Assembly: GCA_021157525.1 (NCBI GenBank)
Contig: JAGGWK010000079.1
Span: 1-38,884, forward strand
Direction of reading: 5' to 3'
Length of the DNA: 38,884 nt
Source: Candidatus Cloacimonadota bacterium
GTDB lineage: Bacteria > Cloacimonadota > Cloacimonadia > Cloacimonadales > TCS61
A program made the translations under genes and the position numbers. Below the pieces are notes generated by a model, which did no database searches, was not told where the DNA came from, and worked only from the letters and a program-made list of their open reading frames with translations. How positions within the stretch are numbered: position 1 is the first letter of the stretch; the number at the start of each line of letters is the position of its first letter. Below are positions 8,894 through 38,884 of the stretch, in pieces.

Positions 8894-9097
8894 CTATTTT
8901 TCTATTGTAATCGCAACGTCAGGACACGTGTTATAGCACATCATACAGGCGATGCATGCATCTTGGTCAAAACACTCGGCATAGTGATAGCCTTTACTGT
9001 TGATGTTTTCCGAAAATCGGATAATTTTCTTTGGGCATGCTGCAATGCAGAGTCCGCACCCCTTACAGTACTTCGGGTCAACTGTCATTCTAGGCAT
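8894..9097 (-). CDS. 2-oxoacid:ferredoxin oxidoreductase, delta subunit (2[4Fe-4S] ferredoxin)
   Basis: This 67-aa polyferredoxin carries two full clusters, CKGCGLCIAACP and CIACMMCYNTCP, and passes electrons from the oxidoreductase to soluble ferredoxin. The ATG at 9097 has AAGGAG 8 nt upstream. It is the first gene of the operon (delta-alpha-beta-gamma), the usual order for VOR/KOR clusters. Confidence 0.93.
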   Translation of the reverse strand: MPRMTVDPKYCKGCGLCIAACPKKIIRFSENINSKGYHYAECFDQDACIACMMCYNTCPDVAITIEK

Positions 9098-9387
9098 AAT
9101 CTACTCCTTCATTTTTATTCTAACTTTTTTTAAAAAAACCGGTGCCACTCTATTTTGTCAACCACAAACTCACGACACTTTGGGTGCCGATTGGTTTTTG
9201 CCCTGTGCCATGTCGCTTTCCCAGCCGTAATCTCTTACATGACATAGTGTAGCGGTTTTTCTGCCGCACCTTAATCTAGGATGCAGCTGCGGTAAAAATA
9301 GTTCGCCCTTCCACTCCCCCATTTGTTGTTGTTTTGGTAGGATGCCAGACGCCATGGCCGACAAATTTCTCTCTTTTTATCAGCCCC
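9098..9387. other. Long leader between comEC and the oxidoreductase operon
   Basis: These 290 nt hold no convincing gene. On the minus strand GTCATGT and ACATGGC (9237-9243, 9207-9213) can form a 7-bp stem with one wobble, enclosing a smaller GCT/AAGC-type hairpin. A CCGCA/TGCGG stem lies around 9270-9295. I match no known riboswitch. The comEC terminator may also be here. Confidence 0.4.
9133..9161 (-). promoter_or_regulatory. Possible promoter of the oxidoreductase operon
   Basis: A perfect TTGACA lies on the minus strand at 9156-9161, about 60 nt before the ferredoxin ATG. The -10 region 17-19 nt on is only T-rich (TTTTTT/TTTTTA), so the call is weak. Confidence 0.35.
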
Positions 9388-36948: not shown

Positions 36949-37566
36949 TTATTCGTTATCCTCAACTTCTTCTACAGCATCAGAACTGTCTAAGTAATCG
37001 AGTCTTTTCTCAATATCTTTTACCGGTGAAACAATGATGAAAATTGTTCTACCTTCAGACTTTGGACGTGAATCAATTTCCACGAGATCTTTCAGATCTT
37101 CCATCAGGCGTTCGAGAAGGTTAAAGCCGATATCTTTGTGAGCAAGCTGGCGTCCACGGAATCGTACCGTGAATTTTACCTTATTGTGATTCTTGAGGAA
37201 CTTCATGGCGTTTGTCTTTTTGAAATTGTAGTCATGCTCTTCTGTATTGGGACCAAACTTAACTTCCTTGGTCTGCACGATATGCTGCTTCTTGCGGGAT
37301 TCCCGCATTTTCCGCTCTTTTTGATAGTGATATTGACCAAAATCCATGATTTTACAGACGGGTGGGACAGCGTTTGGGGATATCTCCACCAAATCCAATT
37401 CAGCTCGTTCTGCCTTCGACAATGCTTCCGCAAAGGACACAACGCCTACCTGCTTACCATCTGCGCCGATCAGGCGAACCTTATCCGCTGTGATCTGCCG
37501 ATTGATTCGTTCCTTCGGAACATCCGGCTTTCTTTTTGTCTTGCTTTTCCTACTTCTCCAAGCCAA
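36949..37566 (-). CDS. infC: Translation initiation factor IF-3
   Basis: 205 aa with N-terminal ERINRQITADKVRLIGADG, linker and C-terminal FTVRFRGRQLAHKDIGFNLL domains. IF-3 stabilises free 30S subunits and rejects poor start codons. The start is TTG at 37566, four bases after AAGGAGG; there is no ATG ahead of it in frame. E. coli infC likewise uses a rare start (AUU), through which IF-3 limits its own synthesis, so TTG may serve the same purpose. The C-terminal tail is acidic (SSDAVEEVEDNE). It is the first gene of infC-rpmI-rplT-pheST. Confidence 0.95.
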   Translation of the reverse strand: MAWRSRKSKTKRKPDVPKERINRQITADKVRLIGADGKQVGVVSFAEALSKAERAELDLVEISPNAVPPVCKIMDFGQYHYQKERKMRESRKKQHIVQTKEVKFGPNTEEHDYNFKKTNAMKFLKNHNKVKFTVRFRGRQLAHKDIGFNLLERLMEDLKDLVEIDSRPKSEGRTIFIIVSPVKDIEKRLDYLDSSDAVEEVEDNE

Positions 37567-37675: not shown

Positions 37676-37960
37676 TAGAAGCGGGATGCTTCTTTTCTCC
37701 ATTTCTTACAATCACTCCCCAAAATCCCTACCGCCCTCATACCGTCAAGTTTTTTGTTTTTAGCACGATAGAGATAAATATCCCATATCAAAAGACAGCA
37801 TCACCAATCGACAAAACCCGCTGATAGAGCAGAAAGATGACACTACAAAAGAAAACATAATAATCGACTTAAATAGATTAATGTAAAAAATCCTTGCCAA
37901 TATTTTCAGGGATTTACATTTCTGATGTCAAATTATCCCGAGCACACTATGGAGGTGATG

Positions 37961-38196
37961 ATGATACCAAATCATCCTAAAAATCGTGTTGCATTCATGG
38001 TTCTGATACTGACCTTCTCAGGAGCAAGTATCTGGAGTTTAGTTCGTCACTATCGCAATTGTACACCGATTCTATCTGTTGAGTCCAAAGTGATATCACG
38101 CCCGGATTGTTCAATCTGGCGCCAAAGGCATCAGGAATAGAGACCCAGAACCTGTGCAGTTTCTTTGGCGAATTCAATTCTACTAACTGGGGCTAA
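37961..38196 (+). pseudogene. Frameshifted single-core relative of the downstream repeat protein
   Basis: GGAGG at 37951-37955 serves the ATG at 37961. The first frame reads a leader, MIPNHPKNRVAFMVLILTFS and GASIWS, then CTPILS before it goes astray and stops at 38140. Shifting back by one base at about 38080 gives VQSDITPGLFN, then NLCSFFGEFNSTNWG and a TAA at 38194. The parts match the neighbour at 38242: leader NLVLFLV...SAISISS, QSDITP at the same place, and the core CGIFGDIKPMDWD. A single-base deletion near 38075-38085 explains it; a sequencing error or programmed shift are alternatives. The core here ends the protein, one residue after Trp. Confidence 0.7.
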
Positions 38197-38241: not shown

Positions 38242-38884
38242 ATGAAAACAAATTTAGTGCTTTTTCTCGTAGCCGCCCTTATCCTGTCCGCTATAAGCAT
38301 CTCATCGATGCTCAACACCTCAAACTCAGCTGACGTCGCTTCCCAATGCCGCATCCAGAGTGACATCACTCCCGCCAATTTTGATGCAATAATTCTTCCC
38401 GACGAATCTAAGGACAGCGAAATCTGTGGCATCTTCGGAGATATCAAGCCTATGGATTGGGACGAGTGGTTAGCAAAAAAAGCAGCCTCTACTACCGAAA
38501 GCCTTACCAGCAACCCCGTCTGTGGCATCTTCGGCGATATCAAACCTATGGATTGGGACGACTGGTTTGAAGGCAACGACCCAACCACCCCGGAAACCAT
38601 CACCAGCAACCCTGTTTGCGGCATCTTCGGCGATATCAAACCTATGGATTGGGATGAATGGTTCGCAAAAAAAGCAGCCTCTACTACCGAAAGCCTTACC
38701 AGCAACCCCGTCTGCGGCATCTTCGGCGATATCAAACCTATGGATTGGGACGAGTGGTTAGCAAAAAAAGCAGCCTCTACTACCGAGAGCATCACCAGCA
38801 ACCCCGTTTGCGGCATCTTCGGCGATATCAAACCTATGGATTGGGACGACTGGTTTGAAGGCAACGACCCAACCACTCCGGAAA
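38242..38884 (+). CDS. Secreted multi-repeat peptide or protein, partial (runs off the window)
   Basis: AAGGAG lies 6 nt before the ATG. At least 214 aa are visible with no stop. Residues 1-22 are a signal- or leader-like segment (MKTNLVLFLVAALILSAISI), followed by a spacer with QCRIQSDITP. From Cys62 an exact 32-residue repeat begins: Cys62, 94, 126, 158, 190. Every unit holds CGIFGDIKPMDWD, then E or D, then W, followed by a 17-residue linker of one of two kinds ending TSNPV. No known family is recognised. Possibilities: multi-core precursor peptide, secreted repeat protein, or surface protein. CGIFG resembles the N-terminus of class II glutamine amidotransferases, but the repetition and absence of that fold argue against it. 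Confidence 0.75.
   Translation, partial: MKTNLVLFLVAALILSAISISSMLNTSNSADVASQCRIQSDITPANFDAIILPDESKDSEICGIFGDIKPMDWDEWLAKKAASTTESLTSNPVCGIFGDIKPMDWDDWFEGNDPTTPETITSNPVCGIFGDIKPMDWDEWFAKKAASTTESLTSNPVCGIFGDIKPMDWDEWLAKKAASTTESITSNPVCGIFGDIKPMDWDDWFEGNDPTTPE
38425..38884 (+). repeat. 96-nt tandem coding repeat, at least five units
   Basis: Units start at 38425, 38521, 38617, 38713 and 38809 (the Cys codon), the last cut by the window end. Core codons are nearly identical even at silent positions (GGCATCTTCGGCGATATCAA), which suggests recent duplication. Linkers are of type A (AKKAASTTESLTSNPV, units 1, 3, 4) and type B (EGNDPTTPETITSNPV, units 2 and 5). Confidence 0.95.

Follow-up and report, generated by a model that had tools for sequence, protein, structure and literature searches.

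What is the interrupted reading frame that lies immediately ahead of a multi-core peptide precursor at one end of a 38,884-nucleotide stretch of Candidatus Cloacimonadota DNA (the window), and to which system do the two genes belong? The interrupted frame and the precursor gene that starts at 38242 are tandem paralogs, of which the former has decayed; their similarity is well beyond chance. Broken and intact copies together appear to head a peptide-sensing cassette, through which cells may sense their own released peptides. The receptor and output genes of this cassette lay beyond the view of the first-pass annotation of the window and change the meaning of the broken copy, which is a small part of a larger result, the three-gene cassette.

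In the frame of its ATG, the broken copy has an open reading frame running from 37961 to 38140, and another frame ends in NLCSFFGEFNSTNWG followed by a TAA codon (38194-38196). A profile made from 20 intact precursors of other genera, with the window sequence excluded, matches the ATG frame with 5.4 bits over model positions 4-30 (37979-38059) and the second frame with 14.6 bits over model positions 31-81 (38044-38190), the second match continuing directly from the first. Compared to these values, 558 tiles of the remaining window, taken from both strands in three frames each, gave a top single score of 8.5 bits, and their best split pair reached 4.8 against 20.0 for the broken copy. Moreover, none of 1000 dinucleotide shuffles attained 14.6 bits. 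The copy was also recovered by a whole-genome search with the downstream protein, with an E-value of 0.002. The first-pass annotation had described a frameshifted paralog upstream of the gene at 38242, which the two-frame match, the tiles and the shuffles bear out; its alignment of the leader, QSDITP and the C-x-x-F-G-[DE]...W core between the two genes, and its view of the family as precursor-like, held as well.

Table 1. Features at the precursor end of the window, with the evidence for each.
Feature	Position	Strand	Evidence
infC (IF-3), first gene of the divergent infC-rpmI-rplT-pheS-pheT operon; outside the cassette	36949..37566	-	fixed neighbour in family f1
Shine-Dalgarno-like GGAGGTG ahead of the ATG (37961) of the broken copy	37951..37957	+	read in sequence
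Decayed upstream peptide-precursor paralog, two cores, frameshifted	37961..38196	+	profile of other genera matches two successive frames; background tiles and shuffles
Broken copy, hydrophobic N-terminal segment, ATG frame, model positions 4-30	37979..38059	+	profile; hydrophobicity 2.09 over 19 residues
Broken copy, core 1 remnant (C, TGA stop 38080-38082, VQSDITPGLF)	38077..38112	+	aligned to CxAQGDFMPxPF
Broken copy, core 2, CSFFGEFNSTNW	38155..38190	+	profile match
Multi-core peptide precursor P0001, runs off the contig end within its repeat	38242..38884	+	sequence, relatives
P0001 N-terminal hydrophobic segment	38242..38313	+	hydrophobicity 2.52 over 19 residues
P0001 core 1, CRIQSDITPANF	38347..38382	+	family alignment
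P0001 core 2, first copy, CGIFGDIKPMDW	38425..38460	+	repeat comparison
P0001 core 2, second copy	38521..38556	+	repeat comparison
P0001 core 2, third copy	38617..38652	+	repeat comparison
P0001 core 2, fourth copy	38713..38748	+	repeat comparison
P0001 core 2, fifth copy, final one before the contig end	38809..38844	+	core count

The second frame reads a Cys codon (38077-38079), the TGA and then VQSDITPGLF. The Cys aligns with the invariant Cys of the precursor family, and VQSDITPGLF with the core 1 that relatives have; QSDITP is therefore what is left of a first core, with CSFFGEFNSTNW as the second core. The gene is thus a two-core precursor like nearly all its relatives, not the single-core gene it had been taken for. 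The overlap of the two profile matches places the frame change at 38044-38059, upstream of the TGA and of the position near 38080 that was originally given for the lesion. Two lesions in the copy are therefore likely, namely a frameshift plus the in-frame TGA; one lesion at 38080-38083 could also account for it, provided that the invariant Cys is lost. We consider it unlikely that the frameshift is an assembly or sequencing error in an intact upstream gene, a reading that would touch the state of this copy only and not the system. The genome is a draft of 87 contigs, the present contig ends in the adjoining repeat, and several relatives possess two intact tandem precursors, all in keeping with an error, but two separate lesions are likelier than one, and two other genomes (L033, L034) have an upstream copy without core 2. 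The broken copy shows the turnover of tandem precursors.

Among the four complete 96-bp units of P0001, the core codons differ at 10 synonymous and no nonsynonymous positions in pairwise comparison, compared to 39 differences in the spacer codons (7 synonymous and 32 nonsynonymous), the pairs not being independent in either case. The contig breaks inside this tandem repeat (38884, and the end of L061), the operon going on in contig C3; several relatives break at the repeat too, and therefore core counts and counts of system-bearing genomes are lower bounds. Elsewhere in the window, a single tandem repeat was reported, at 2409-2452, with 1.9 copies of a 23-bp unit.

Across the family, core 1 reads CxAQGDFMPxPF, with C42, Q45, G46 and P50 invariant in 20 of 20 rows of an alignment that covers 20 of the 30 listed precursors, the long multi-core ones being excluded. 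At least two cores are present in 36 of 38 precursor sequences, 34 of them recognized by pattern and two (L146 and L147) by eye, as the pattern missed their second core. The remaining two (L033:8485 and L034:9795) are decayed upstream paralogs. The first-pass annotation had proposed that a single-core ancestor became multi-core by duplication, and had named the absence of intact single-core genes from related genomes as speaking against it; there is none among the 38 sequences. We therefore rejected a single-core ancestor visible today. Duplication of the last core stands, from an ancestor that is, on the evidence, two-core. The position of the core at the very end of the protein, also proposed there, is not general, since many relatives have an acidic tail behind the last core.

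Three to seven cores, arising by amplification of core 2, occur in 10 genomes including that of the window. The repeat units comprise 17, 21, 22, 25, 26, 32 or 35 residues and their spacers look unrelated, which suggests that core 2 was probably amplified several times independently. In five precursors, Ala replaces Cys in 14 of 20 copies of core 2. Paralogs paired within one operon share 75-100% identity in core 2 in seven of nine cases, with leaders that are 22-90% identical there; in the other two pairs the upstream core 2 is degraded, and the upstream copy of L034 lacks it. One genome (G030) has two receptor-precursor loci, L040 on C142 and L043 on C151, with different second cores, CSMQGDIMPKGW and CSMQGDICPDPW; these are either two systems or mixed strains, the contig coverages being 79 and 121.

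At E ≤ 0.001, 30 of the 124 genomes from the phylum have a match to the precursor profile, comprising 26 of family f1 and four of f13, a second family of the same class. No match was found in 13 of 40 family genomes even at E ≤ 0.01. Pfam and NCBIfam searches assigned the precursors to no family, and a contig search with the window protein alone confirmed no relatives. Four hits (G005:C48, G009:C186, G016:C15 and G023:C177) were excluded as unrelated or stop-filled frames; an earlier count of 22 of 59 includes the excluded G009, and the profile counts over 124 genomes are used instead.

The cassette of Candidatus Cloacimonadota consists of one to three small precursors, a ~222-aa protein with seven predicted transmembrane (TM) helices, here termed the receptor, and a TM-PAS protein that ends in an HD-GYP or histidine kinase domain, here termed the output protein. 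In f1 the block leads away from the divergent infC operon in the order precursors, ~222-aa membrane protein, ~415-aa TM-PAS-output protein, a ~700-aa protein and NuoE/F/G-like genes. In f13 the precursor, receptor and output genes are found together with none of the other f1 neighbours, which indicates that these three form the unit. Neither a processing protease nor an exporter was found among the conserved neighbours of the cassette. In the genome of the window the block is split, with C23 ending inside the repeat and C3 (10,511 bp) starting inside the receptor gene and holding the rest.

Precursor and receptor are both present in 28 of the 124 genomes and both absent from 91, three genomes having the receptor alone (G024, G117 and G123) and two the precursor alone (G012 and G060), a co-occurrence with a Fisher p of 4e-22 when relatedness is ignored. 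By coordinates, contig ends truncate the locus in G012, G060 and G117, the locus of G024 is spread over separate contigs, and the receptor of G123 carries three stops. In 27 of the 28 genomes, one of them (G027) by a weak fragment with an E-value of 0.002, the precursor lies directly upstream of the receptor on the same contig; the 28th is the genome of the window, where they are split between C23 and C3. Near infC, five of the seven family genomes without the system that we checked have unrelated genes (G004, G009, G014, G017 and G019), and the other two (G007 and G028) end or begin at infC and are uninformative. All 25 loci among the receptor-homolog records belong to Candidatus Cloacimonadota, including Tenebribacter and Celaenobacter, in a scan with two peptide patterns that could miss distant relatives.

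Some loci show additional features. At L150 of G123 (9009-9305), the receptor with three stops adjoins a broken output gene and there is no precursor match; this locus is a decayed system, and it adjoins a TPR histidine kinase and a sigma-54 response regulator. The ~700-aa family, represented by L038 7749-9896 and its relatives, follows the output gene and accompanies the block in f1 only. It has no Pfam match and no match in a PDB sequence search, and its structural model (pLDDT 78.7, pTM 0.66) consists of a beta sandwich and a large barrel, with generic outer-membrane barrel folds as matches. Further downstream of the cassette, in L038 (10193-15722) and in L061, NuoE/NuoF-like genes are followed by a fusion of glutamate-synthase-small-subunit-like and NuoG-like parts.

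The AlphaFold2 model of the receptor has seven helices, with a mean pLDDT of 81 and a pTM of 0.80. Positively charged residues occur in loops 1 and 3 and at the C-terminus, a distribution that fits the predicted N-out/C-in topology of the seven-helix protein. With this topology, a conserved loop, Y-x-P-[IV]-N-T-T-D-F, in which P128, N130, D133 and F134 are invariant in 16 rows, would face outward. Fold matches comprise rhodopsins and GPCRs at background level (best Foldseek E-value 0.02), and the comparison with VIA gave a Z-score of 13.6 and an RMSD of 4.5 over 209, close to what is stated as background for helical bundles; therefore we claim no relation to either group. A Pfam search assigned the receptors to no family, and a PDB sequence search yielded one weak match only (FliQ, E-value 0.07).

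Receptor and output genes share an overlap of 28-34 bp in 20 of the 30 loci tried, the other 10 not being measurable by the script. The product of the output gene consists of one TM helix, a coiled coil and a PAS domain, followed by HD-GYP or a histidine kinase. The TM-PAS N-terminus is conserved, and the C-terminal part is HD-GYP in most, with an HD_5 match at an E-value of 1e-40 and HHExxDGSGYP kept in the alignment; the HD and GYP motifs are also present in the output protein on C3 of the window's own genome. The output is a HisKA_2 kinase in L047, L049 and L149 and, by alignment, in L051 and L054; moreover, L146 has a GAF-HisKA_2 output and L148 a PAS-GAF-HisKA output. These sequences show interchangeable output domains on a common TM-PAS N-terminus.

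Taken together, we consider it rather probable that the cassette mediates peptide signalling via a split seven-helix receptor, and that at its head stands a tandem pair of two-core precursors, the first of which has decayed into the broken gene of the window. We infer that the precursor would be inserted in, or exported across, the inner membrane by its hydrophobic N-terminus, and that short peptides around the cores, of the CxAQGDxxPxP[FW] type and CGIFGDIKPMDW in the window, would be released. These peptides would be sensed by the seven-helix protein encoded next, which may act together with the product of the overlapping gene, so that peptide binding would change c-di-GMP breakdown or phosphorylation; repetition of core 2 would raise the peptide yield per precursor. 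Linkage, the overlap of receptor and output genes, domain exchange and core conservation support signalling. It is weakened by the fact that the unit contains no processing enzyme, by the 13 of 40 family genomes without a precursor match and by the degraded upstream core 2 in two of nine pairs. In addition, a partial Mantel test across 12 genomes (r 0.26, p 0.11) showed no significant covariation of core and receptor distances beyond phylogeny, in a set of 12 of the 18 loci with typed cores that had both receptor and PheS. The QGDxxPxP pattern is also common across genera, which weakens the reading further; signals for private communication are often more divergent.

The strongest rival to peptide signalling is a tethered, non-diffusing ligand or accessory subunit: the precursor would stay anchored by its N-terminal helix, its periplasmic cores would bind the cell's own receptor and determine its activity, and the repeats would raise avidity. 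The hydrophobic N-terminus indeed looks uncleaved, no lipobox or processing enzyme was seen, and precursor and receptor are strictly linked. However, the repeated amplification of core 2 with unrelated spacers resembles a dosage of released units, and the cores are fixed whereas the spacers are free to vary; we regard such tethering as quite unlikely. Small, secreted-looking tandem precursors would also suit an antimicrobial peptide, with bacteriocin-like cores and a seven-helix protein that protects or regulates the producer. This is very improbable, since the partner conserved with the precursor is not a transporter but a PAS-HD-GYP or kinase protein, and the replacement of Cys by Ala described above runs contrary to thioether chemistry. 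Genome-wide searches found a LanC-like protein in none of the 40 family genomes and a double-glycine C39 peptidase/exporter in one, marginally (E-value 8.5e-4); a lanthipeptide or C39-type bacteriocin was rejected on these counts. Finally, it is hardly credible that the precursor is secreted as a repeat protein and works in a surface or envelope structure together with the ~700-aa protein, a predicted outer-membrane barrel, the receptor pair being an unrelated neighbour: the barrel gene does come after the output gene in f1, but the f13 unit of precursor, receptor and output lacks it, and many precursors have only two cores.

If peptide signalling is correct, the cassette would provide a first candidate cell-cell signal for an uncultured anaerobic phylum, as a peptide that is readable from the genome and testable by synthesis. 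It would also be an example of a single receptor family coupled to c-di-GMP breakdown in some cases and phosphorylation in others, and of repeated peptide-core expansion within one precursor. Searches of open-licence papers, with passages of PMC8542988 among them, yielded no description of the system and showed no quorum sensing for Candidatus Cloacimonadota; the cassette thus looks undescribed. Whether it amounts to a new class of bacterial peptide communication is a tentative proposal that we hold with slightly more doubt than belief. Such a class would combine multi-copy, alpha-factor-like precursors, a stand-alone seven-helix receptor that switches a partner, direct control of c-di-GMP breakdown by an extracellular peptide, and HD-GYP and kinase outputs exchanged between lineages.

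Parts of the cassette resemble several known systems. Similar to precursors of RiPPs such as lanthipeptides, its precursors have a leader and short, sometimes repeated cores with Cys; however, no modification enzyme is found among the conserved neighbours, and in five precursors the repeated cores do not all retain Cys. RpfG of the DSF system is an HD-GYP c-di-GMP phosphodiesterase sensor, and the cassette likewise places an HD-GYP output under a proposed extracellular cue. Compared to RpfG, the HD-GYP protein of the cassette is a TM-PAS protein linked to seven-helix and peptide genes, and the output protein scanned has no response-regulator receiver. AgrD/AgrC and ComX/ComP are peptide quorum-sensing systems with polytopic membrane receptor kinases. 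The cassette shares with them a small precursor gene beside a polytopic, here seven-helix, membrane receptor (adjacent in 27 of 28 genomes) and an output module, as well as kinase outputs in part of the family. By contrast, Agr and ComX combine receptor and histidine kinase in one polypeptide and have AgrB or ComQ in the operon, whereas the cassette uses two overlapping genes with mostly HD-GYP outputs and has no dedicated processing gene among its conserved neighbours; it also resides in a double-membrane candidate phylum and has no sequence family in common with them. Yeast alpha-factor derives from a multi-copy pheromone precursor, which the multi-core precursors resemble in the hydrophobic N-terminus, the repeated short cores, the variable and often acidic spacers and the seven-helix partner. 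The cassette differs in being bacterial and in having no Kex2-like dibasic sites seen; its GPCR fold matches are at background, and we claim no homology. Given its separate receptor and output genes, its mostly HD-GYP outputs and the absence of a processing gene, we consider the cassette a member of neither group, one that would work like Agr and ComX in its sensing and like alpha-factor in its multi-core precursor.
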